From positions 1 to 39,100 of IMG/VR virus record IMGVR_UViG_3300027996_001566: a stretch of DNA of 39,100 nt; one strand, written 5' to 3'. The notes beneath the pieces are model-generated. The model was not told the DNA's origin. It saw only the letters and a list, made by a program, of their open reading frames with translations, and made no database searches. A program made the translations under genes and the position numbers. Shown here one piece after another: positions 410-34,061 of this stretch. This stretch comes from a virus. Position 1 is the first letter of the stretch. Each line of letters opens with the position of its first letter.

Positions 410-423
410 AGATATATAATAAG
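410..423 (+). promoter_or_regulatory. Candidate late-type promoter upstream of S1-like gene
   Basis: The sequence agatatataataag sits just after the stop of the first gene and 28 nt before the next ATG. It belongs to a recurrent TATATAAT/TATAAATA motif found between genes in this window and resembles the T4 late promoter box TATAAATA. AT-rich sequence makes chance matches easy, so confidence is low. Confidence 0.35.
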
Positions 424-447
424 TATTAACACCTAAACTAAAAATAA

Positions 448-1602
448 ATGCCTACAAACACAATTACCCCTGATCAGGATTTTGATTGGGAATCTCTCGA
501 AAGATCATGTCCAAAATATCGAAGGAAAAATAAAATTTTCAATACAAACGATATTGTCTATGACACAGACCCTCAAAAACAACAACAATATTTAGATTTA
601 ATTGAATCAACCGAAGCTTTGGTTAAACCTGTTGCAAATTCTATAGTCGAAGGAATTGTCACGGATGTTAATAGCCGATATGTATCTATGGATATTGGAT
701 GGCGAGAATCTGCTATATTAGATATTAATAAAGAACTACCTGAATATAGAGATAATTTTGTTGTTGGTGCAACGATGGAAGTAATTTTAAAAGTAGTCGA
801 CTTGAAATCTAATAATGGTTGCATTACCGCATCTTATACTGAAGTTGTTAAACATTTAAAACATAGAGAAATACATAGTTCAATTGGTAAACGTATGGCA
901 TATCCGGCTACAGTTAAAGAATTAATTCATGGTGGATATTTCTTAGATATTGATGGAGTTGAGGTATTTATGCCAGGTTCTTTAGGCGGTGTTAACAAGC
1001 TTATAAATTTTGATAAGCTTTTAGGAAAAGAAATTTATGTAGTTCCGATTAATTATGCCAAAGATAAAGATTATATAGTAGTTTCTCATCGAGATTATTT
1101 ACAATCCCTTATACCTGATGCCTTAGAGGATTTAAATCCTGGTGATGGAAAAACTGGATTTATAACTGGTACTACTAAATTTGGAATATTTTGTGAATTT
1201 GATAAGTGTTTAACCGGTCTTATTCATAAATCGGATTTAGATGGCGAAACTCAAGAAGCATTTAATGATCGATCATTAAAACCTGGTGATGAAATAGAAT
1301 TCGTAGTCAAAGAAGTTACACGGGATAGTAGAATAATATTGACACAAAAAGAATATATTCCAGAAATAGATCCATGGGATAATATCGATCATTATGTAAT
1401 ACCATCTCAAGTGCAAGGAACTATACGAAAGAAAACTAAATACGGTATGTTTATTGAATTAGAACCTAAAGTAGTTGGCCTTTTGCATATTTCTGATATA
1501 CCTGATTATATCGATTTAGCCGCAACAAAGGAAGGAGATCTGATCACCGTTGACCTAATAAAAATTGATATAGAAAGCAAAAAGATTTTCTTCAAAATTT
1601 AG
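448..1602 (+). CDS. Phage ribosomal protein S1-like protein, four S1 domains
   Basis: The 384-aa protein is built from four S1/OB-fold RNA-binding domains, at about residues 66-130, 150-214, 234-300 and 320-384. Domains 3 and 4 show the classic pattern: GFITGTTKFGIFCEF then GLIHKSDL, and GTIRKKTKYGMFIEL then GLLHISDI. Domain 2 carries VEVFMPGSL, like the 'GIEAFLPGS' stretch of bacterial S1, followed by a VVSHR strand. The N-terminus has DFDWESLE, resembling the FDW-x-x-(F/L)E start of Bacteroidota RpsA. Host S1 usually has about six domains and near 600 residues, so this is a shortened version ending after domain 4. S1 binds mRNA leaders at the ribosome; here it may steer translation to phage messages or act as an RNA chaperone, which is inference. 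The gene lies just upstream of structural genes and has its own candidate promoter. Confidence 0.85.
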   Translation: MPTNTITPDQDFDWESLERSCPKYRRKNKIFNTNDIVYDTDPQKQQQYLDLIESTEALVKPVANSIVEGIVTDVNSRYVSMDIGWRESAILDINKELPEYRDNFVVGATMEVILKVVDLKSNNGCITASYTEVVKHLKHREIHSSIGKRMAYPATVKELIHGGYFLDIDGVEVFMPGSLGGVNKLINFDKLLGKEIYVVPINYAKDKDYIVVSHRDYLQSLIPDALEDLNPGDGKTGFITGTTKFGIFCEFDKCLTGLIHKSDLDGETQEAFNDRSLKPGDEIEFVVKEVTRDSRIILTQKEYIPEIDPWDNIDHYVIPSQVQGTIRKKTKYGMFIELEPKVVGLLHISDIPDYIDLAATKEGDLITVDLIKIDIESKKIFFKI

Positions 1603-1632: not shown

Positions 1633-2931
1633 ATGGACTTTAGTAGCTTTCAAGATAAAACAATACAAGCATCTACATATATTAGTTTAGATTTAGATTT
1701 CTATTGCAAGTTTAGTATTGAAAAGGTTGCCGAGAAATTTGGAACCATCCTAAAAGAGACTGTAGAAGTTGTTGATGAAGATAATTTTAAACCGAGTTCT
1801 GGCAGATTTTATATTATTCGAAGCTATGGGTTTGGTAAAGAACGATATCGATTCTATACAGATAAATTAACATACTCTCGAGCGCGTATAATTCTTATAT
1901 CTGCCTTCGGTGTAATAAAAGAATTTGGTTATACAGATTCTAGTTGTATTTGTAATGTTGATATATCATTAGATCCTAACATATCTGGATTGAATATCAA
2001 AAACTTAGGTATTCTTAAATTTATTCTAGAATTTAATGAAGATGTTCCATTTAGATTATTTCCATCTCAGAAGAATTCAATATATGTAAAGTCTATTAAG
2101 TCAATCACACCACAGAATAAATTTTATAGATCGGATAATGTTAATATAAATGACTTTAATTACATATTACCAGTGTTATCATATTTTGGTGTAATTTTCG
2201 ATGACGTAAAAGATGGAACAATTAACTTTCGATATATTGGAGGCGAAAAGTATGAATATAAAATAGTCGAAGCTTTAAATTTAATTGGGTTTTATATTGG
2301 CCAATTGGTTAAAGTTTTACACAATCCAACATACACCGATTCTAATAAGAAAACATTAAATAAAATAATAAAACAATCAGATAAACTATTAGATGCATAT
2401 GAATCTCCTGAAAAATTTAAAGAAACATATCCGGATATCAAACTTACAGTAGATTTAGATACCAATGATCAGATTGTGAAATCCAAATATGTGAAATTTC
2501 GAGATGATATATTTGATTTGCTATCAGGTTCTGATATTACTAAGGGCGAAATTAATTATGATAGTGAACTTTCTAAAATACAAGGCAAAGGTTTTAAAGG
2601 CCATGTGTATGAAATTGATAAATGGGAATTCTTAGAATGTGATTTAGAAATTGAATTAGCATCATATTGTAATTTCTTCGAATGCTCGTTATCAAACTCA
2701 ACTATTACGAGATCTAATATCTATAGATTTAGTAAAGTCAAAAAATCTAAGATACGGGATACATATATTAATAGAACGTGTGAGATAACTGATACTTTTG
2801 TAAATGGCGATCAATCAACCATTGATTGTTCTGTTGTTCGTGGAAAAATCATTGGTGGTAGAATTGGAAATCACGCAAAAATATCTAACGAAACTGAAAA
2901 ACTAGACTATTCAAAAGTCTATATGAAATAA
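1633..2931 (+). CDS. Amidoligase-like candidate with C-terminal beta-helix repeats
   Basis: The 432-aa product has two parts. The first ~250 residues recall the amidoligase (ATP-grasp/GCS-like) fold seen in some T4-like phages: a strand-rich opening (ISLDLDFYCKFSIEKVAEKF), then NVDISLDP followed by a helix, then a FNED and FP pattern near residues 130-145. The histidines expected in the H-x-H position are absent, so the assignment is weak and catalysis doubtful. The last ~115 residues (from about 317) form a pentapeptide-like beta-helix with repeating CDLEIE, CSLSNSTIT, KSKIRDT and CEITDTFV units, usual for assembly or binding surfaces. The gene ends 10 nt before the neck gene, suggesting expression with virion genes. 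It may be a non-enzymatic structural or assembly protein. Confidence 0.4.
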   Translation: MDFSSFQDKTIQASTYISLDLDFYCKFSIEKVAEKFGTILKETVEVVDEDNFKPSSGRFYIIRSYGFGKERYRFYTDKLTYSRARIILISAFGVIKEFGYTDSSCICNVDISLDPNISGLNIKNLGILKFILEFNEDVPFRLFPSQKNSIYVKSIKSITPQNKFYRSDNVNINDFNYILPVLSYFGVIFDDVKDGTINFRYIGGEKYEYKIVEALNLIGFYIGQLVKVLHNPTYTDSNKKTLNKIIKQSDKLLDAYESPEKFKETYPDIKLTVDLDTNDQIVKSKYVKFRDDIFDLLSGSDITKGEINYDSELSKIQGKGFKGHVYEIDKWEFLECDLEIELASYCNFFECSLSNSTITRSNIYRFSKVKKSKIRDTYINRTCEITDTFVNGDQSTIDCSVVRGKIIGGRIGNHAKISNETEKLDYSKVYMK

Positions 2932-2941
2932 ATGAAATAAT

Positions 2942-3763
2942 ATGTCTGAAAATCCTAACAATTCACAGTTTGCAAATGTTTATGGTGGTCTTATACCAAG
3001 TAATCAAATGCCACAGGATGAATTTATTGCAGAAGTACAGCAAGAATTAACTGTCGCTTGTGCATTACCATTTAGCGTTCCAGTTCCTGAATTATTGAGA
3101 TTAATAAAATATTCTGCGAAATGGTTCTATAAGAAATATGAGAACTCTGTTCAAGAAAGATATTATGTTATACCGAAACAAAACTTTAAAAATATCCCTA
3201 CATTTAAACAATTCGGAACTATTAAATTACCTGATTGTGTATTTTCAATAATGGGAGTTAGACAAGTAGATGATGGGTTTTCTTTATACAATCCTCTTAA
3301 AAGTATGCCGGATTTTTCTTTAGAGAAAGTTTTATTTAAAGATATTTACACTATCGATGGTTCTACCGAAGCATTAATGTATTCAACGGTTTATCAATAT
3401 TGGATTGATTTAGCAAGTCATGTATTATTTCATCCAATTAGTTATAACTTTAATACTAATTCTAAAGAACTTGTATTTTTAGGAGAAGTTCCACAGAATG
3501 ATGTAGTTCTAACGGTTTACGAAGAACTTCCTATAGGATACTTATATAAAGACGAAATATTTTTTAGATACGTTTGCGCAAAAGCAAAAACTCAATTATC
3601 TAGAATATTAGGAACTTTTGCATTTAATTTGCCTGGTGGTATCACGATCAATTATGACTTATTAAGAGATGAAGGCCAAACCGCATTAGAGAAAATTGAA
3701 GAAGAAATTAAGTCAGATGAGGGTATGGATTGGTTCTTCACCTCAGGTAACGATAATAAATAA
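2942..3763 (+). CDS. 13: Neck protein, T4 gp13-like
   Basis: The 273-aa protein matches the layout of T4 gp13 (309 aa), a component of the head-tail connector. The best match is the C-terminal helix-turn region, residues about 203-265: KDEIFFRYVCAKAKTQLS, then LPGGITIN (230-237), a DLLRDEG segment and a charged helix ending just before WFFTSG. T4 gp13 has the corresponding DYATALAKELNG, LPGGVTID and ILVG. The N-terminal part (residues 40-78, VPELLRLIKYSAKWFYKKY then YYVIPK) also parallels gp13 (QIYDCIQRALELYGEY then FYV). Both comparisons are from memory, not alignment. In T4 this gene sits with 14 and 15; here it is followed directly by gene 25- and 6-like baseplate genes, so the order is rearranged. 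Confidence 0.65.
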   Translation: MSENPNNSQFANVYGGLIPSNQMPQDEFIAEVQQELTVACALPFSVPVPELLRLIKYSAKWFYKKYENSVQERYYVIPKQNFKNIPTFKQFGTIKLPDCVFSIMGVRQVDDGFSLYNPLKSMPDFSLEKVLFKDIYTIDGSTEALMYSTVYQYWIDLASHVLFHPISYNFNTNSKELVFLGEVPQNDVVLTVYEELPIGYLYKDEIFFRYVCAKAKTQLSRILGTFAFNLPGGITINYDLLRDEGQTALEKIEEEIKSDEGMDWFFTSGNDNK

Positions 3764-4171: not shown

Positions 4172-5992
4172 ATGGCAACGAATAATAAAAATAATGAGTT
4201 TCTAGATAAAAGTAAGATAACCTATACTTCTTTAGTTCAGGGTGCACAAGAATATCTGGTTAAAACGTATAATAGAGCTAGAACTATATTTACACCGGCA
4301 TCACCCTTTGGTCAGATACTTCAGGTTGTACAAAATTTAACTCAGTTGGTATTCTTTTATATAGAGGATGCTTTAGTTGAATTAAATATTTACACGGCAT
4401 TTAAAGAAAAATCCATATATGGTTTAGCTAGATTAGCTGGCCATAATCCTACTAGAGCAATAAGTGCAAGAGGAACTTTATCACTTAATATAAAACCTGG
4501 AGCAGCTAATGAAGTAGGAACACCGTTTGTTTTTGTTTATAACAATACTAGGATTATAAATGTGAATACAGGATTAGAATATTTGATGAAAGTAGATAAT
4601 TCGACTGAACGAGTAAAGATAGATTTGACAACAAACGGAATATATAAATTTAGAACTATTCAAGGAGAAGCAGAAGAACAATCTGTGGTATCAACCGGAA
4701 AGAATCTCCAAAGTTATAATTTTGGTTCTAAGACTCAAGTAGAAAATGATACGGTTGAGGTTTTTGTTAATGGTGATCAATTTGGTATCGCGGATTCATT
4801 ATATGATATGACTAAAGGTGAAAGAAGCGCTATAGTCAAAACTGGAATTAACGGCGGTATTGATATCTATTTTGGTAATGATGATTTTGGATATGTTCCT
4901 AAATTAGGTGAACAGGTATTAGTTAGGTATATAAAAACCATGGGTGTTCGTGGTAATTTATTTGCAGCTTCTGATATTCTTAAATGGAAATTTGATGACA
5001 AGGGATTGAGCAATATTGGTGAAGAGGTTGATTTAAACGATGTATTTAACGTTGGTATAGATAAGCCTTTCATATTAGGTTCACCACAAGAAGATATAAA
5101 TTTCACACGATTAATTGCACCTCGTACATCAAGAGCGTTAGTTCTTGCAAATCCAGATAATTATGTTGCATTTTTATCTCGATTTGATTATTCATATGTA
5201 GATGCTTATACAACATACGATGATGAATATATCGATGATGATAATGTGGTCTATTTATTTTTGGTACCAAATGTTCAAAGCAGATTATCTAAAGATTCTG
5301 ATTATTTCACAACAGATGAATCTAATTTTTATTTAAGCTCTGATGAAAAAACTGCATTATATTCATACATTCAGCGAAGTGGTAGACAAGTCGTTTCAAC
5401 TGAATTAAGTGTTGTAGATCCTATAATTACTAGATACGCAGTGAATGTTATTCTTAGGATATTTGATGGTGTTGACCAAGCCACTATAAGTGCTGATATT
5501 ATTGCATTATTGTCTCAATATTTCTTAAAGGTTCAACGTCGAGATAAAATACCGAAATCTGATTTAATTGCATTAATCGAATCAGTAAGCGGTGTTGATA
5601 GTGTTAATTTGCAATTTGTCTCTCAGCTTAATGAAGAAGCTATGAGATATGGATATTACTATAAGACAACATATAAAATAGATTCAATACGGTCTATTAA
5701 AGAAGCTATTAGAACTAAAGTAACGTTAGAAACAAATTCAGCAGGAGATGTTATACAAGATCCGAATTTAGGATTAGATAAATTCGGTGATATTGTAATT
5801 GGCCTTAATGAGCTTCCAATTATTCGTGGAGGTTGGTCTGATCGAGAAGATGTTTTCTATAGTACAGATATTAAAAGCAATAATATATCATCAGTTAATG
5901 TAGTCATAGATGAAATAGTAGATGAGAATTTATCTATTCAGATTATGAATCAAAATAAAAATATATTAATTAACAATGAACGAAAATCCTAA
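4172..5992 (+). CDS. 6: Baseplate wedge protein, T4 gp6-like (Baseplate_J)
   Basis: The 606-aa protein corresponds in size and order to T4 gp6 (660 aa), the wedge dimer that closes the baseplate ring. The N-terminal third is helical (YLVKTYNRARTIFTPASPFG, then a coiled segment up to about residue 90). A beta-rich middle follows. The last third has the Baseplate_J pattern: TSRALVLANPDNYVAFLSRF, a strand with VYLFLVPN, the helix SSDEKTALYSYIQ, and IITRYAVNVILRIFDGVD before the VSGVDSVNL strand. The start at 4172 is preferred over an ATG four bases upstream, which opens a five-codon frame ending in TAA. The 3' end overlaps the next gene by 17 nt. Confidence 0.8.
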   Translation: MATNNKNNEFLDKSKITYTSLVQGAQEYLVKTYNRARTIFTPASPFGQILQVVQNLTQLVFFYIEDALVELNIYTAFKEKSIYGLARLAGHNPTRAISARGTLSLNIKPGAANEVGTPFVFVYNNTRIINVNTGLEYLMKVDNSTERVKIDLTTNGIYKFRTIQGEAEEQSVVSTGKNLQSYNFGSKTQVENDTVEVFVNGDQFGIADSLYDMTKGERSAIVKTGINGGIDIYFGNDDFGYVPKLGEQVLVRYIKTMGVRGNLFAASDILKWKFDDKGLSNIGEEVDLNDVFNVGIDKPFILGSPQEDINFTRLIAPRTSRALVLANPDNYVAFLSRFDYSYVDAYTTYDDEYIDDDNVVYLFLVPNVQSRLSKDSDYFTTDESNFYLSSDEKTALYSYIQRSGRQVVSTELSVVDPIITRYAVNVILRIFDGVDQATISADIIALLSQYFLKVQRRDKIPKSDLIALIESVSGVDSVNLQFVSQLNEEAMRYGYYYKTTYKIDSIRSIKEAIRTKVTLETNSAGDVIQDPNLGLDKFGDIVIGLNELPIIRGGWSDREDVFYSTDIKSNNISSVNVVIDEIVDENLSIQIMNQNKNILINNERKS

Positions 5993-27726: not shown

Positions 27727-28389
27727 ATGTTTTTAAACGCAAGATCAGATTTATTTAAAGTAGAATTCCCGAGGACATTTATACCAAAATCCTTAAAGGA
27801 TAAGTATTCGCCGTATGTATTCAGAATGCCTACTATGATTAATGATGTTACGGATTTGATTAATTATACAATTCAAACAGTTACTATACCAACAATGAAC
27901 TATCAACCGGTTGAGCAAATGATTCCGGAAACTAAAAACAAATTTGCTTCAAATGAAATGTCGCCAAATTCTTTAGGGAATTCTTCGACTGAAGCTGGAA
28001 GAACGCATAAATGGAGAAGTTCTTCTAATATACAAGAAGTCTTTACAAAAGAGTTCACTGTGACCTTTCAATTAATTGATGGACATATAAATTATTGGAT
28101 TCTTTTAGATACCTTGCTTTATTTTTATGACTTTCAAAACAGAGAAAGATTTACACAAAATATTCCAGTTCGTATATTAGATGCTGAAGGTAATGTAATG
28201 TTTACCGCGCTATTTACGGATTGCTTATTTACTGGATTGACTGAATATCAATTATCATATTCGGATCTATCGCAAGAATTTAAAACCTTTGATGCAACGT
28301 TCCAATATAATACATTAGCTCTCGAATTACTACCTGATAATAACGTAGACAAAAGCAAATTTATTCCTGGGAGTACTATCACCACATAA
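27727..28389 (+). CDS. Tail-tube-fold protein (gp19/gp54-like)
   Basis: The 220-aa protein shows the tail-tube pattern. An N-terminal strand (DLFKVEFPRTF) leads to a long loop with NYTIQTVTIP. The core follows: FTVTFQLIDGHINYWILLD, a helix, the strand PVRILDAEGNVMF, LFTDCLFTGLTEYQLSYSD and the closing FDATFQYNTLALEL. The order 'strand, D-G-x-x-N-Y, ILD-x-x-GN, F-x-x-tF-x-x-N' is shared by T4-like tube and tube-initiator proteins. T4 gp19 has 163 residues and gp54 has 320, so size does not decide between them. It starts one base after the previous stop. No sheath gene lies in the window. Confidence 0.6.
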   Translation: MFLNARSDLFKVEFPRTFIPKSLKDKYSPYVFRMPTMINDVTDLINYTIQTVTIPTMNYQPVEQMIPETKNKFASNEMSPNSLGNSSTEAGRTHKWRSSSNIQEVFTKEFTVTFQLIDGHINYWILLDTLLYFYDFQNRERFTQNIPVRILDAEGNVMFTALFTDCLFTGLTEYQLSYSDLSQEFKTFDATFQYNTLALELLPDNNVDKSKFIPGSTITT

Positions 28390-28416
28390 ACTTTTATGCG
28401 GAGACACACAAATATA

Positions 28417-28430
28417 TATAAATATAATAA
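28417..28430 (+). promoter_or_regulatory. Exact TATAAATA late-promoter-like box
   Basis: TATAAATA at 28417-28424, followed by TAATAA, lies in the 98-nt gap after the tail-tube gene and 58 nt before the preferred start at 28488. It is an exact match to the T4 late promoter box. It is the strongest of the family of similar sites in this window and marks a likely transcript start for the glycine-zipper gene. Confidence 0.5.
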
Positions 28431-28487
28431 AAAAAAGCGGCAAATAAAAATTTTTTGATCAGTTTTTTAAAAAAGTTATTAACAATT

Positions 28488-28832
28488 ATGGAAAATCTTA
28501 CAAACTATACTACTTCAGACGAGATGATTACATTCAACGATTATATGAATGTCAAAGATGAATCATTAACAGAAGCGCAAGAAGCGCAATTAGATGATGC
28601 TATTGCACTATTCCTTGCTGAAGGATATGATGCAACTGATTTAGATAGAGAAATGTTAGAGGAAGGGATATTTGGGTCTATTCTCGGAGGTCTTACTGGG
28701 GCTGCATTAGGAAAAAGTGTTGGTAAAATGCTTGCAAAAGTATTGGGTGTTCAAAAGGGTGTTCTTTACGATTTATTAACTTCTCGATTAGTTGGAGCTG
28801 CTATAGGTTCTACCATTGGTAATCGATTCTAA
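28488..28832 (+). CDS. Glycine-zipper protein with capsid-targeting-like N-terminus
   Basis: The 114-aa protein starts at the ATG at 28488; a TTG 33 nt upstream is possible but poorer. Residues 14-20 (ITFNDYM) resemble the T4 capsid-targeting core TYQEFI. Two T4 gp21-type sites follow: L-T-E|A (27-30) and L-E-E|G (57-60). Cleavage at the second would release a ~55-residue C-terminal peptide (GIFGSILGGLTGAALGKSVG and onward). That peptide is rich in spaced glycines and hydrophobic residues, a glycine zipper suited to membrane insertion. The N-terminal half is acidic, like a pro-region. Function is not known; a packaged, possibly membrane-active internal protein is inferred. It precedes the RuvC-like gene by 11 nt. 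Confidence 0.5.
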   Translation: MENLTNYTTSDEMITFNDYMNVKDESLTEAQEAQLDDAIALFLAEGYDATDLDREMLEEGIFGSILGGLTGAALGKSVGKMLAKVLGVQKGVLYDLLTSRLVGAAIGSTIGNRF

Positions 28833-28843
28833 AAACAAAATAC

Positions 28844-29488
28844 ATGGCAATTATTGCAATTGACTTTTCAATTAACTCGACCGCTATTTGCGTTCAACAC
28901 AACAACAAACTAGATTGGTATAACATAGTCTCAAATTTAAACCTTGAGCGGAAGCCGTTTATAGTACATAAAGAATTATCGGAATCTTCAGATAATGTTC
29001 ATATTATTGGATATGATCGAAATAAACCAAAGGATCTTGATTATTCAGCTGAGCAGTCATTTAAGATTGCTAATGCTAATTTACATTCAGATATTATAAT
29101 TAGCGCGTTAGAGCCTTATATTCGTGGGTTTAGTACTATCATAACATTTGAAGGTTATAGTTATGGATCTAAAGGTAATTCATTCATCGATTTAATAGCT
29201 TACAATACATTTCTTAAAACTAAATTAATGATGGAGTGCCAAAATGGCATACAAGTGGTTGCACCAAAATCAGTTAAAAAGGATTTCACTGGAAACGGTA
29301 ATGCTGGTAAACCAATGATGGTAGAAACTTTTAGTAAAAGAACTGATATGATTTTAAAGAATGATCCAGTTCATAATTATGTTTCCAGCCAAAGCTTCGG
29401 AGATAACATTCCAAAACCGATCGATGATTTAGTAGATGCATATGCTATATTAAAATATACTGAATCTCGTATAGGTTCTAAAAGCTAG
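28844..29488 (+). CDS. RuvC-like Holliday junction resolvase / RNase H-fold nuclease
   Basis: The 214-aa protein shows the RuvC arrangement of acidic residues. D7 lies in AIDFSINSTAI (motif I, D-x-S-x-x-S/T). E103 lies in ITFEGYSYG at the end of the central strand. A PKSVKKDFTGNGNAGK segment (141-156) parallels RuvC 'P-x-x-VKK-x-x-TG-x-G-x-A-x-K'. The final IDDLVDAYAI (193-202) supplies D195 and D198. Such enzymes cut branched DNA made during recombination-dependent replication and packaging. T4 itself uses endonuclease VII (gp49) for this, which is unrelated; here a RuvC-type enzyme may take that job. It is followed by the only large non-coding gap in the window and then by the replication genes. 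Confidence 0.75.
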   Translation: MAIIAIDFSINSTAICVQHNNKLDWYNIVSNLNLERKPFIVHKELSESSDNVHIIGYDRNKPKDLDYSAEQSFKIANANLHSDIIISALEPYIRGFSTIITFEGYSYGSKGNSFIDLIAYNTFLKTKLMMECQNGIQVVAPKSVKKDFTGNGNAGKPMMVETFSKRTDMILKNDPVHNYVSSQSFGDNIPKPIDDLVDAYAILKYTESRIGSKS

Positions 29489-29844
29489 TCGGAGGATTTT
29501 ACCCAGAATAATCAAATTATATCATTTAGGAATTTTAATAACAGTCTTTGCTTCAGTACATAACGGGAGATAACTTAGACTGACAGCTCAATGGCTTAGA
29601 CTTTCAACTAGAAGATAGAAAATGGAGTAGAGAGATAGTAACTGTTCTTACTATATTATTTGACTGGAAATTAAAGATAATTATTATATGATCTATTTGA
29701 AGGACAGTTTCAACTTTGCTCACTTCTTTTGAAAATAATTTAAAAATAATTATATTGAAACTTTTCTATTGCAATTACATATAACTAATAACGGTTATAC
29801 CACAATGGATAATCTAGAAATAAAGTAAAATTAATAAAGTAATT
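29489..29844 (+). other. 356-nt non-coding region upstream of gene 32; possible ncRNA or control region
   Basis: This is the only stretch over 300 bases without a gene. I see no open frame over 14 codons starting with ATG on either strand. It contains a 6-bp inverted repeat (CAGTCT 29542-29547 with AGACTG 29577-29582), the 8-mer CTTAGACT twice (29574-29581 and 29595-29602), and an 8-bp inverted repeat with one G-U (AACTGTTC 29640-29647 with GGACAGTT 29702-29709). A purine-rich stretch lies near 29611-29639. The final ~130 nt are very AT-rich and probably hold the promoter and leader of the SSB gene. No tRNA is supported. Confidence 0.5.
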
Positions 29845-30801
29845 ATGAGTACAAACAACACAAACGGAGAATTTGATCTATTTAATCTTTCATTAGAGGA
29901 TTTTCAAAACAACGAACCGGTAGTCGAAAGAGGACCAGGGCTTTACAAAGCAAATCCGACCGAAGGGAAAGACAACGTCTACAGATCAGTGATCAGATTT
30001 CTACCTAACCCAAAAGATCCTAGAAACAGTATTATTAAAAAATATTCGTACTGGCTTGAGGACTCACAGGGTAATGCCGGTTATTTCGACTGTCCAACAA
30101 CAGTAGGAGAAAAATCAATTATTGGCGATACTTACTGGAAGCTTGCAAAAAGCTCTTCGGCATTCGACCAAAAACAAGCTGAAAAAATCAGAAGAAAGGA
30201 ATATTACTTCTCGGTTATTCAAATTGTTAAAGATCCGCAAAGACCGGAACTAGAAGGAACTCTTCAAGTATTTAGATTTCCAAAAACGCTTAAAAAATTC
30301 ATAGATGCTCAAACATCACCATCTGTTGAAGATATTGAATTGAGTAATGCAGAACCATGTAATGTTTTTGATCTTTTCGAAGGTAAAGACTTTTCATTAA
30401 AAGTAACGCTTAAAGGAGGCTATTGGAATTACGATGAATGTAAATTCTTAAAACTATCTCCAGTTCAAGTAGATAAAGTGGCTATGGAAAATAACAACGA
30501 GTGTAAAGCTCAGATTATGGACTATCTAAAAGGTTCTCCAGATTTGACGGTTTATTACTACAAACCATGGAGCGATGAACAAAGAACTAAATTACATACA
30601 ATATTGCAAGACCTTTCAGGTAATCCTGGATCATCTTATAATAATACATCTAATCCACCTTCTACAAAAACCGAACCAACTAATGATAAACCAAAATCTG
30701 CTATGCAACCTAATACAGATTTTGATACATCTAAAACCGATACCAAATCCGAATCAAGTAATGATGAAGATATGGAAAAATGGTTAAACGGAGTTTCGTA
30801 A
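29845..30801 (+). CDS. 32: Single-stranded DNA-binding protein, T4 gp32-like
   Basis: The 318-aa protein matches gp32 (301 aa) in plan. An N-terminal arm is followed by the core (VYRSVIRFLPNPKDP, then KKYSYWLED, YFDCP, and the conserved FSVIQIVKDPQRPELEGTLQVFRFP). Then come a linker rich in Asn, Pro, Ser and Thr, and an acidic C-terminal tail (SSNDEDMEKWLNGVS) that recruits replication and recombination proteins. The T4 zinc-binding set (one His, three Cys) is not present: only one Cys (in FDCP) lies in that region. gp32 coats single strands at the fork and during strand exchange. It is transcribed after a long non-coding leader region and followed by a strong hairpin, which suggests separate, tunable expression from the primase downstream. 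Confidence 0.85.
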   Translation: MSTNNTNGEFDLFNLSLEDFQNNEPVVERGPGLYKANPTEGKDNVYRSVIRFLPNPKDPRNSIIKKYSYWLEDSQGNAGYFDCPTTVGEKSIIGDTYWKLAKSSSAFDQKQAEKIRRKEYYFSVIQIVKDPQRPELEGTLQVFRFPKTLKKFIDAQTSPSVEDIELSNAEPCNVFDLFEGKDFSLKVTLKGGYWNYDECKFLKLSPVQVDKVAMENNNECKAQIMDYLKGSPDLTVYYYKPWSDEQRTKLHTILQDLSGNPGSSYNNTSNPPSTKTEPTNDKPKSAMQPNTDFDTSKTDTKSESSNDEDMEKWLNGVS

Positions 30802-30812
30802 ATAACTTTTTA

Positions 30813-30847
30813 AGTAGCCCTGATTTATTTGATAAGTCAGGGCTATT
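30813..30847 (+). terminator. Strong hairpin after the gp32 gene
   Basis: A 13-bp stem pairs TAGCCCTGATTTA (30815-30827) with TAAGTCAGGGCTA (30833-30845) across a 5-nt loop, with one G-U pair. It sits 13 nt after the SSB stop and 11 nt before the primase start. No good U-tract follows, so it may be a weak terminator or an mRNA-stabilising 3' hairpin that sets gp32 levels above those of the primase. Confidence 0.7.
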
Positions 30848-30856
30848 AGTTTAAAG

Positions 30857-31921
30857 ATGGAAGATAAAAATAACATATCAGCTAGCCTAAAGGAACGATT
30901 ATTAAGCAAGTTACAATATATTCTTAGTAACGAATTTCATGGTGAAAAGGCTAGAATAAAACAAGGATATGATAGAATTAATTTTGCATGTCCTTATTGT
31001 GGAGATTCTTCAGAAAATCAATATAAGAAGCGAGGTAATCTTTATTGGAAATCATTAATGTTTCATTGTTATAATTGTTCTCATCATACGAGTGTAGTTA
31101 ATTTACTAAAAGATCATAATAATGCATTGAATAGTGTTGAAGACGTTACAAGCGTTTTAGATTATATCGCAGAAAATAGAATTGATACAAAACCTATTGA
31201 ATATCTTCAAGTTGGAGTATTTAAAGGTCTATCTGATTTAGCAATAGATAGATCTGAACTTATGAAACTACTTAACTTAGTTGAAATACAAAAAGGTACA
31301 GTTGCATATACATTTGTTAAAAATAAGTTTTTATTGAATAGACACAAACATTTTGCATGGTCAGATAAAAAGAATCAATTATATGTATTCAATCTATCGA
31401 GAGATAACAAAGTAATAGGATACCAAGTAAGAAATTTTGATACTAATCGAGCTAAATATATTAGTTTCACTATTGAAAAAATTTACAACGAAATTAAACG
31501 AGAACTACCTAAAATCGAAGGTATGGAAAAAATCAATACCCTCTCGCTTTATTATAACATATTGATTGTTGATTTAACAAAAACCTTTACAATATTTGAA
31601 GGCCCTTCTGATGCATTATTATATCCAAGGCAATCAATTGCTCTTAGTGGTGTAAATAAAAATTCAGAAATGTTCGATGAAATTCCAGGTGCAAGATATC
31701 TATTTGATAATGATGCAATTGGTAGAAGAACCATGGAAGGAAAACTTAAACGAAAGAAAAGCGTTTTTATGTGGAGAAAATTCATAAAAGAAAATAAATT
31801 AGACAGAGACATTAAAGATTTTAATGACTTAATAAAGTTTTGTTATTTTGATAGAAATACTGCATATAAAAATATAGATAAATACTTTACAACCAGTCCT
31901 TATGACATTCTTAACATTTAA
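30857..31921 (+). CDS. 61: DNA primase, T4 gp61-like
   Basis: The 354-aa protein has an N-terminal zinc-binding domain with C45-P-Y-C48 and C71-Y-N-C74. A TOPRIM-type catalytic core follows: E248 in TIFEGPSDALL, D284 and D286 in YLFDNDAIGRR, then DIKDFNDLI (318-326). Length is close to T4 gp61 (342 aa), and no helicase domain is attached, so it is a stand-alone primase expected to work with a separate helicase (gp41 in T4). It makes RNA primers for lagging-strand synthesis. It starts shortly after the gp32 hairpin and overlaps the next small gene by 20 nt. Confidence 0.8.
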   Translation: MEDKNNISASLKERLLSKLQYILSNEFHGEKARIKQGYDRINFACPYCGDSSENQYKKRGNLYWKSLMFHCYNCSHHTSVVNLLKDHNNALNSVEDVTSVLDYIAENRIDTKPIEYLQVGVFKGLSDLAIDRSELMKLLNLVEIQKGTVAYTFVKNKFLLNRHKHFAWSDKKNQLYVFNLSRDNKVIGYQVRNFDTNRAKYISFTIEKIYNEIKRELPKIEGMEKINTLSLYYNILIVDLTKTFTIFEGPSDALLYPRQSIALSGVNKNSEMFDEIPGARYLFDNDAIGRRTMEGKLKRKKSVFMWRKFIKENKLDRDIKDFNDLIKFCYFDRNTAYKNIDKYFTTSPYDILNI

Positions 31922-32120
31922 TAAATTTGTGAACGAAGAAATAGACGAATTTTTCCAAGAGGCTGATAAACATGGCAACTTGAAACTACCTGTTGATATT
32001 AATTTCAAAAAAATTAATCATCAAAAGAATTCGTTTATGGTCGAGCCTAAAATGAAAACAACTAAAATAAAGCATAAGAAAACCTGGGAAGGTACTAACA
32101 AAGGCAAAAACTTATTTTAA
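31902..32120 (+). CDS. Small basic protein with capsid-targeting-like N-terminus
   Basis: This 72-aa protein begins MTFLTFNKFVNEE, which aligns with the T4 internal-protein targeting sequence MKTYQEFIAE: T-F-N-K-F-V-N-E against T-Y-Q-E-F-I-A-E. A possible protease site, F-Q-E|A, follows at residues 18-21. The remainder is basic (KTTKIKHKKTWEGTNKGK), as in the DNA-associated internal proteins of T4. It overlaps the primase end by 20 nt and its last base is the first base of the next gene. Function is unknown; a small packaged DNA-binding internal protein is inferred. Confidence 0.5.
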   Translation: MTFLTFNKFVNEEIDEFFQEADKHGNLKLPVDINFKKINHQKNSFMVEPKMKTTKIKHKKTWEGTNKGKNLF

Positions 32121-32557
32121 TGGAATTATCTGAAGACAAATTACAAAAAATAGAAACCTTACTTGAGAAGGATCGAAAGGAATGGTCTGATAATATACAA
32201 AAACTAATTAGAAATATTGGAATCGCTGACCGATTATCAGCTGCTCAAGTAGATATGTTATCTTATAGACATATGATAACTGATAAAATAATAGAATTCA
32301 ATATTATGCTTAACAAGAAGCGTTCTAACGATTCTAACTATACAAAAACTAGATATCAATATTATAAGACAAATCATGACGTTAGATTAGATCATAGAGA
32401 AATAATGGAATATATTAAGTCTGATATGTCATTGAGATCTAGAGAAACTGGTCTTATAGAAAACCAAATATCATATTACAAACAAGCGATAGAAACACTT
32501 GATAAAATGGGATTTGCGATTAAAAATAAAATAACAATAGCTACCAATGATATTTGA
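32120..32557 (+). CDS. uvsY: UvsY-like recombination mediator
   Basis: The 145-aa, helical, basic protein corresponds to T4 UvsY (137 aa), which loads the UvsX recombinase onto gp32-coated single strands. The C-terminal part shows the match: RYQYYKTNHD for UvsY RLDYYSGRGD, a helix, then ISYYKQAIETLDKMGFAIKN for UvsY LQYWGILLDF...IKSRGFAIKH. The shared GFAIK lies at residues 131-135. It directly precedes the uvsW-like helicase and overlaps it by 11 nt; uvsY and uvsW are also close in T4. The comparison is from memory, so an alignment would firm it up. Confidence 0.7.
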   Translation: MELSEDKLQKIETLLEKDRKEWSDNIQKLIRNIGIADRLSAAQVDMLSYRHMITDKIIEFNIMLNKKRSNDSNYTKTRYQYYKTNHDVRLDHREIMEYIKSDMSLRSRETGLIENQISYYKQAIETLDKMGFAIKNKITIATNDI

Positions 32558-34061
32558 TTTAACGCATAATGGTAAATTACTTACATTACGAGATGCCAGT
32601 GAGATCGAAATGGATCAACTTAAAATCACATTAACTCGCAAAATCGATAATTGGAGATGGGATCCTAGAGTTAAAAAGGGTTGGTGGAATGGTGAAATTT
32701 CATATTTTCATAGAGGCCAATATGTGCCTGCAGGACTATGGCAAGTGGTAAGAGATATGTGTAAAGACTATGGATACGAATTACAAATTAATGATCTTAA
32801 AGAAAAGTTTGATAGATCAATTAAATTTGAAGAATTTGAATCGTGGGTAAAAGAAAAATTTGAAGGCCACGAACTAACCCCAAGACCTTATCAAATAGAA
32901 ACGGCATATAATATCATTAAAAATAAATGTTGTTTAGCTGAACTGGCTACATCCGCAGGAAAATCACTGATATTATATATTGTGTTAGCTCATCTATTAG
33001 AAACTAAGAAAGCTGAAAAGATTTTAATGATCGTTCCTAATGTAAGCCTTGTGGTTCAAGCAACCGAAGATTTTTATGAATATAATCGAGGATCACTAGA
33101 TTTAGATATTGAGATTCAACAAATATTTGCAGGTTCTAAAATTAGAAAGGGCGCTAATATCGTTATTGGAACTTATCAATCGTTAGTTAAAAAGAAGGAA
33201 GAGTATTTTGATGAATACACAACAGTCATGGTTGATGAAACTCATAAAGCTAAAGCAGTTTCGATTAAAAATATCTTAGAAAAATGCACTAAAGCAGACC
33301 GAGTATTTGGTGTTAGTGGAACCATTCCTAAACCAGATTCATTAGATAGATTAACATTAATGTCTTATACCGGCCCAGTTATATCTAAAATAACAGCAGC
33401 TGAATTAATAAAGGATAATTACATATCTCCAGTTGAGGTTAAAGTAATTGAAATGAATTATGCCCCAGAGTCTGTTAGAGAATCCTTTAAATTTCTTACA
33501 AAAACCCAAGAAGATAGAAAACGACTTTTAAACTTAGAGCAAAACTATGTAATACAAGATAAAACTCGATTAGATTTTGTAACAGATACAGTTCTTAAAA
33601 TAAAGAAGAATCAATTAGTGTTATTCTTCAGAGTTGATTATGGAAGGCTTATGTATGATACTATTCGTAATAAGACAACTAGACGAGTTTTTTATATCGA
33701 TGGAGGCACAGATAAAAACCTAAGAGAAGAATATAAAGCACAGATGGAAGAAGGCGAAGATAAGATCTTAATTGCATCATTTGGAACATTCTCAACAGGA
33801 ATAAATGTAAAAAATCTTCATTATGTTTCGTTAACCGAGTCATTCAAATCTGATGTTATTATTAGACAATCTATTGGCCGTGGTTTAAGAAAGCATGAAA
33901 CTAAAGATAGACTTACTATATTAGATTTTGTAGATGATTTTCGCATACAAGGTTTTATCAATTATCTTTATAGACATTCCAAAGTTCGTCGAGAAATATA
34001 TGATGAACAAAAATTTCCGTATGAAATTAAAAGTATAGATTTGACTAAGATATATAATTAA
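32547..34061 (+). CDS. uvsW: UvsW-type SF2 DNA/RNA helicase
   Basis: The 504-aa protein matches T4 UvsW (503 aa) in length and motifs. RPYQ (113-116) is the Q-like motif. ATSAGKS (134-140) is the Walker A motif. VMVDETHK (228-234) is the DExH box and SGT (257-259) is motif III. GTFSTGINV and QSIGRGLRK (near 440-450) are motifs V and VI. The N-terminal ~100 residues form the UvsW DNA-binding domain (WDPRVKKGWWNG). UvsW unwinds R-loops and branched DNA and drives branch migration, shifting T4 from origin-dependent to recombination-dependent replication. It follows the UvsY-like gene and is the last replication gene here. Confidence 0.9.
   Translation: MIFDLTHNGKLLTLRDASEIEMDQLKITLTRKIDNWRWDPRVKKGWWNGEISYFHRGQYVPAGLWQVVRDMCKDYGYELQINDLKEKFDRSIKFEEFESWVKEKFEGHELTPRPYQIETAYNIIKNKCCLAELATSAGKSLILYIVLAHLLETKKAEKILMIVPNVSLVVQATEDFYEYNRGSLDLDIEIQQIFAGSKIRKGANIVIGTYQSLVKKKEEYFDEYTTVMVDETHKAKAVSIKNILEKCTKADRVFGVSGTIPKPDSLDRLTLMSYTGPVISKITAAELIKDNYISPVEVKVIEMNYAPESVRESFKFLTKTQEDRKRLLNLEQNYVIQDKTRLDFVTDTVLKIKKNQLVLFFRVDYGRLMYDTIRNKTTRRVFYIDGGTDKNLREEYKAQMEEGEDKILIASFGTFSTGINVKNLHYVSLTESFKSDVIIRQSIGRGLRKHETKDRLTILDFVDDFRIQGFINYLYRHSKVRREIYDEQKFPYEIKSIDLTKIYN

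Follow-up and report, generated by a model that had tools for sequence, protein, structure and literature searches.

A bS1-like Gene Ahead of the Neck and Baseplate Genes

Ribosomal protein bS1 is a main suspect in the choice of translation start sites by Bacteroidota, which is made without Shine-Dalgarno (SD) pairing. The window, i.e., the whole stretch of 39,100 nt of DNA analyzed here, comes from a virus of Bacteroidota-type bacteria and carries a gene resembling that of bS1. The gene product is a four-domain bS1-like protein whose domain plan is family-wide; it is encoded at a conserved position, retains docking and RNA-binding residues, and is frequently co-encoded with bS21.

The open reading frame starts with the ATG at 448 and stops with the TAG at 1602 on the plus strand, and the opposite strand is closed by numerous stop codons. 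The 384-residue protein was matched by the Pfam S1 family (PF00575; E-value 6.1 × 10−22, 78.2 bits). Its closest solved relative was 9zcd_A, a 591-residue Bacteroidota bS1 of Flavobacterium type, aligned over residues 40–381 with an E-value of 2.7 × 10−30; because a uS2 search also finds uS2 in 9zcd, this entry is a ribosome structure. AlphaFold2, run with a 32-row alignment, modeled four OB folds at residues 66–129, 152–213, 234–299, and 320–383 (mean pLDDT 80, pTM 0.56, low over the first 60 residues). With this model, Foldseek returned E. coli bS1 as the top match (2.0 × 10−24), the first matches coming from 30S mRNA-delivery complexes. A preliminary description made from the DNA letters had proposed a phage-encoded protein of bS1 type, and this is confirmed by the reading frame, the Pfam and 9zcd_A matches, the four OB folds, and the phage gene context. 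The curated bS1 equivalog cut-offs were also tested and missed (NF000907, 159 of 624 bits; TIGR00717, 132 of 577; NF004953, 154 of 720), so the name bS1-like was chosen.

The same description had equated the four domains with RpsA domains 1–4. This is firm for the first two domains: phage D1 scored 65 against host D1 and at most 43 against the other host domains in hhalign, the corresponding values for D2 being 78 and at most 44, and D1–D2 are orthologous to those of bS1. The assignment is weaker for D4, which scored 114 against host D4, narrowly above the 104 against D5, and for D3 it is not carried by the scores (71 with host D5, 59 with D4, and 41 with D3). The GVEVFMPGS sequence pointed out earlier corresponds to residues 170–178.

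Table 1. Features of the bS1-like gene and its surroundings in the window.
Feature	Position	Strand	Evidence
A/T-rich leader without SD core	418..447	+	Sequence
Phage bS1-like protein of 384 aa with four S1/OB domains	448..1602	+	ORF, Pfam, PDB match, AlphaFold2, Foldseek
F12-D13-W14 (FDW) motif	481..489	+	Outside phages seen only in Bacteroidia bS1 N-termini
Predicted helix 42–55 before D1, corresponding to the helix by which bS1 docks on uS2	571..612	+	AlphaFold2, low to moderate pLDDT; aligned with E. coli residues 5–13
S1/OB domain 1 (D1), residues 62–136	631..855	+	hhalign best to host D1
S1/OB domain 2 (D2), residues 150–216, FMPGSLGGVNKL motif; host OB2 lysine replaced	895..1095	+	hhalign best to host D2
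S1/OB domain 3 (D3), residues 230–302, TGTTKFGIF..CLTGLIH	1135..1353	+	OB aromatic and His conservation
S1/OB domain 4 (D4), residues 316–384, YGMF..GLLHISD	1393..1599	+	Conserved residues; hhalign best to host D4
Amidoligase-like protein, 432 aa, usually next downstream of S1	1633..2931	+	Homologs in 78 loci; PF12224 in 10/21 members; GS-like fold
Neck/head-tail adaptor protein	2942..3763	+	phrog_211, 1.4 × 10−9; homolog annotated as neck protein in Tenacibaculum phage PTm1
Small protein encoded in the conserved tail cluster, 120 aa	3794..4156	+	Homologs in 77 loci
Baseplate wedge subunit	4172..5992	+	phrog_219, 9.4 × 10−17; homologs in 75 loci

The gene heads a neck/baseplate cluster of a T4-like phage, just upstream of the amidoligase-like gene (Table 1). 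The downstream neighbors are present in 75–78 of 87 loci, and in 50 loci they follow in identical order with nothing in between. T4-like genes of the window encode a gp32-type SSB, a UvsW helicase, a UvsY-like protein, a RuvC-like resolvase, and tail tube, neck, and baseplate wedge proteins. The neck/baseplate context and its conservation rule out that the S1 gene of the window is contamination or a host gene in a phage bin. Other phage-labeled matches proved to be host rpsA. MT835643 and CAKLQH020000011, both host contaminants of a phage collection, carry a six-domain rpsA among host genes, and the contigs of Acinetobacter phage MD-2021a matching S1 likewise hold host rpsA.

The Phage S1 Family

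A scan of viral contigs with the single sequence found no relatives; an alignment-based search with five rows then matched at least 570 IMG/VR contigs, the largest being 294 kb. The best 80 of these matches were kept and, together with five huge phages (records of up to 735 kb), yielded 66 different proteins, of which 64 are full length. The huge-phage records LR756500, LR745206, LR756502, LR756504, and LR756501, which are named ‘uncultured phage’, are presumably those of the 2020 study of Al-Shayeb et al. All 64 full-length proteins in this set end right after D4. The word ‘truncated’ in the preliminary description therefore holds only relative to the six-domain host bS1 and is misleading, because the four-domain layout is shared by a large phage family and is not an individual truncation. 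Further matches came from the Prevotella phages Lak-A2, whose protein is without D4, and Lak-B5. The pairwise dN/dS of S1 had a median of 0.13 and a maximum of 0.25; phage S1 is under purifying selection.

A profile scan of bacterial assemblies found no phage-type S1, and no matching family was found in PHROGs. The gene is optional, since the Tenacibaculum phages pT24 and PTm1 manage without a detectable S1. A gene for bS21 was co-encoded in 8 of the 22 related phage records tested, many of which are fragments, and often lay about 20–30 kb from S1; examples in S1-bearing genomes are LR756504 (473834–473989) and LR745206 (296654–296806). No bS21 was found in the 39,100 nt of the window.

Docking and RNA-binding Residues

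The bS1 of E. coli docks on uS2 via Phe5 and Phe9 of the N-terminal helix and Lys43 in the zinc pocket, and bS21 bridges OB1 and the 16S rRNA (PMC10123108). The corresponding residues were counted in 38 dereplicated phage S1 proteins and 24 hosts. The Lys43 position is basic in 36 of the 38 phage proteins (Arg in 30, Lys in 6), the window having Arg86 (703–705). At the Phe9 position, where Tyr predominates in Bacteroidota hosts, 19 of the 38 have Tyr and the rest an aliphatic residue, which in the window is Leu51. The helix preceding D1 was also modeled by AlphaFold2, with a pLDDT of 33–65 over the helix and the FDW region. At the sequence level, the uS2-docking helix and the Lys43-type residue thus appear to be kept in phage S1.

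The OB aromatic Phe248 of D3 is present in all 38 phage proteins and His260 in 31; in D4, Tyr332 was found in 32, Phe335 in 33, and His347 in 35. At the OB2 lysine column (E. coli Lys117), on the other hand, Lys occurs in 23 of the 24 hosts and in one of the 38 phages, most of which have His, Gly, Asn, Pro, or Ser. Judged by these alignments, the mRNA-facing lysine of OB2 is lost in the phage family.

An FDW or FNW motif before D1 was present in 12 of 12 Bacteroidia bS1 proteins, 0 of 12 from other Bacteroidota, 0 of 9 from other phyla, and 27 of 38 phage proteins, ‘Bacteroidia’ being our reading of the 12-row clade from its Bacteroidales and Flavobacterium-type members. The N-terminal leader, taken earlier as a Bacteroidota trait, is more specifically of Bacteroidia type, as none of the 21 other bacterial references has it. 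Trp14 is invariant among the 32 aligned IMG/VR rows, and FDW was not found in the huge phages L002–L006. This short motif could have been inherited from Bacteroidia bS1 or have arisen by convergence on a Bacteroidia-specific ribosomal surface; under either explanation it would point to ribosome docking.

Origin of the Phage Proteins

A tree was built from the D1–D4 columns of 71 sequences, among which bacteria outside Bacteroidota made up nine rows only. The phage proteins grouped together as a single clade (100/100), with 2.63 substitutions per site along its stem, and the sampled Bacteroidota bS1 proteins formed one clade without phages. In AU tests with the phages constrained to different groups, no tested placement was rejected: the p-value was 0.64 for Bacteroidota, with a likelihood better than that of the free tree, 0.465 for Bacteroidia, 0.329 for Chlamydia, 0.309 for Proteobacteria, and 0.107 for the Bacillota/Actinomycetota group, an origin from four-domain Bacillota S1 thus being the least favored placement. 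Long branches meet in this tree, and sampling outside Bacteroidota is thin. The Bacteroidota host origin suggested in the preliminary description is favored by the FDW motif, while the phylogeny speaks neither for nor against it, given the long stem and the survival of all placements. Recent acquisition from a host is ruled out by the deep phage-only clade.

Leaders and Shine-Dalgarno Sequences

None of the 26 genes of the window has an SD core (GGAG, GAGG, or AGGA) at positions −18 to −4, against 2.4% expected from shuffles. Observed and expected frequencies were 4.2% and 3.2% in the relatives, 4.8% and 5.6% in Bacteroidales flanks, and 36% and 14% in Proteobacteria, the last from 11 genes only. 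In the cultured Tenacibaculum phage pT24, 0 of 67 genes have an SD core, and the A content is equal. This phage, in which no S1 was found, is thus also without SD. The absence of SD therefore goes with the host, which confounds the correlation published for phage S1 and SD absence (PMC7162821). The A/U-rich, SD-less leaders emphasized in the preliminary description are thus real in the window, but they give no specific support to S1 function, for which SD absence was discarded as an argument given pT24 and the Bacteroidales flanks; SD absence alone cannot imply S1 function.

The A content of the relatives' leaders peaks at −13 to −11 and at −3 and is host-like. In F. johnsoniae, A at these positions goes with efficient translation, and S1 is predicted to be close to −12 and −13 (PMC6847099); the host bS1 doubles initiation on SD-less mRNA in this species (PMC9976891).

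Proposed Role and Alternatives

With moderate confidence, we regard the protein as a putative, late-expressed bS1 substitute that docks on the host 30S subunit and favors phage mRNAs. Its position among the neck/baseplate genes suggests that it is made late, alongside the virion proteins. Through the FDW segment, the helix, and D1, the protein would attach to the host 30S subunit where bS1 sits on uS2, and the docked protein would compete with or supplement the six-domain host bS1. Domains 2–4 would bind A-rich, SD-less phage leaders and direct them to the mRNA channel, and the rewired D2 could tilt the mRNA preference toward phage messages. Four domains suffice in principle, since E. coli S1 domains 1–3 retain all 30S activities (PMC3858243). 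This substitute role is favored by the homology to bS1 in sequence, profile, and fold, the docking residues, the kept OB aromatics and His, the FDW motif, the dN/dS values, the conserved virion-cluster position, the co-encoding of bS21, the late expression of phage bS21 (PMC9723584), the effect of host bS1 on SD-less mRNA in F. johnsoniae (PMC9976891), and the A peak at −13 to −11 in the part of the leader predicted to lie near S1. It is weakened by the commonness of S1 domains in non-ribosomal RNA-binding proteins, scores far below the bS1 cut-offs, the low-confidence model of the helix and FDW region, the absence of FDW in L002–L006, and the optional nature of S1. A preference for phage mRNAs is left unexplained, because host mRNAs are also SD-less and A-rich.

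The protein could also work off the ribosome, as an RNA chaperone or mRNA stabilizer that coats or unfolds A/U-rich phage mRNAs without replacing bS1. Al-Shayeb et al. leave action on or off the ribosome open (PMC7162821), and the RNA-binding aromatic and His residues that D3 and D4 still have, the diverged OB2, and the distance to the equivalog cut-offs would fit such a function. However, D1, which does not bind RNA in bS1, the docking helix, the basic residue at the Lys43 position, and FDW are all kept and would be unnecessary off the ribosome, and we consider this function unlikely. The loss of the OB2 lysine and the presence of four domains instead of six could alternatively mean that phage S1 is a dominant-negative decoy, displacing host bS1 and shutting off host messages that need domains 5–6 or the host OB2; viral bS21 put into E. 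coli ribosomes did cut translation to about 5% (PMC6375957). Such a decoy is distinctly unlikely, as the virion-cluster location suggests expression late, when phage translation must be high, and E. coli domains 1–3 are enough for initiation (PMC3858243).

Host S1 also serves T4 RegB, Q-beta replicase, and lambda Beta (precedents in PMC13157829), and phage S1 might likewise be a cofactor of another phage or host process such as RNase action, transcription/antitermination, or recombination. We hold this to be very unlikely, given that virion and amidoligase-like genes adjoin S1 and no conserved RNase or polymerase neighbor is present. The strict confinement of the gene to a neighborhood of neck, baseplate, and tail genes would in turn suit a minor virion or assembly protein reusing S1 domains, but the RNA-binding and docking residues are retained and no structural family was matched, making this the kind of explanation to which we attach hardly any probability.

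Beyond the bS1 substitute itself, it is possible, if rather doubtful, that widespread Bacteroidota phages install an initiation platform of their own, built from the four-domain S1 with its rewired OB2 and often also from a bS21 encoded by the phage. Docked via the Bacteroidia-specific FDW, it might create specialized ribosomes with a preference for late phage mRNAs among equally SD-less mRNAs of the host.

Relation to Known Proteins

Possible rpS1 proteins with up to six domains were reported in a few huge phages in 2020 (Al-Shayeb et al., PMC7162821). These fall into one phage clade (100/100) with the family of the window, LR756500 and LR756502 grouping inside it; the LR756500 protein is 42% identical over its full length, and the genomes are SD-poor. 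In contrast to that report, the family described here comprises hundreds of contigs and has four domains, usually an FDW leader, and a fixed site upstream of the neck/baseplate genes. Cyanophage PhiMa05 also encodes bS1, its ribosomal proteins tracing to Vampirovibrio-like hosts (PMC13157829, 2026). The large phage S1, presented earlier as standing out from the small viral ribosomal proteins, is thus not the first of its kind.

Bacteroidota bS1 (rpsA, e.g., 9zcd) shares with the phage protein the orthology of D1–D2, the docking and OB residues, and, in Bacteroidia, FDW/FNW. It differs in having six domains instead of four and about 25% identity in D1–D4, and the phage protein has FDW and D1 spaced further apart, has lost the OB2 lysine, and belongs to a phage-only clade. 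In Bacteroidota phages, phage-encoded bS21 is a late product, expressed together with structural genes (PMC9723584). Like S1, it is an initiation-site ribosomal protein encoded among virion genes that keeps its ribosome-binding residues while its mRNA-binding part has diverged; it is a different protein, however, located on the reverse strand near terminase/capsid genes, whereas S1 lies in line with the neck/baseplate genes. The closest viral structures include A0A7S9STL2 (S1 motif protein of Virus NIOZ-UU157; 37% identity) and A0A8D9CG03 (‘30S ribosomal protein S1’ of an uncultured marine phage; 30%), both similar over nearly the whole length. Their names are automatic UniProt names, and no study of either protein was found in the literature.

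Apparently new against the literature searched are the size of the family, its uniform four-domain plan and fixed position, the Bacteroidia-type motif, the rewired OB2, the pairing with bS21, and the pT24 control. The 2019 census of viral ribosomal proteins omitted the S1 domain as functionally ambiguous (PMC6375957), and censuses that exclude S1 have missed one of the larger examples. A phage family with natural changes in an mRNA-facing domain and retained docking residues offers a ready comparison for studying the role of S1.

Other Observations in the Window and Related Loci

No tRNAs were found in the window, and scans for promoters and terminators yielded no more than shuffled sequences did. 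At 27727–34061, after the tail tube gene, the genes for the SSB, UvsW, UvsY-like, and RuvC-like proteins form, together with a primase gene, a T4-like replication/recombination set. The amidoligase-like family has a glutamine-synthetase-like fold, and the protein ends in a pentapeptide-repeat-like part; the copy in the window seems to have lost the family motifs GxEFEFYS and LELVT and may be a pseudoenzyme. In the huge phages L003, L004, and L005, the gene preceding S1 encodes a protein of 129–138 residues that is conserved among the three and ends in a UVR-like motif (EEAAxLRDYM). The gene at 29–406 of the window and the genes preceding S1 at other loci encode small proteins, several of which start with MPL and have proline/alanine-rich tails, and in ten related loci these proteins cluster together.
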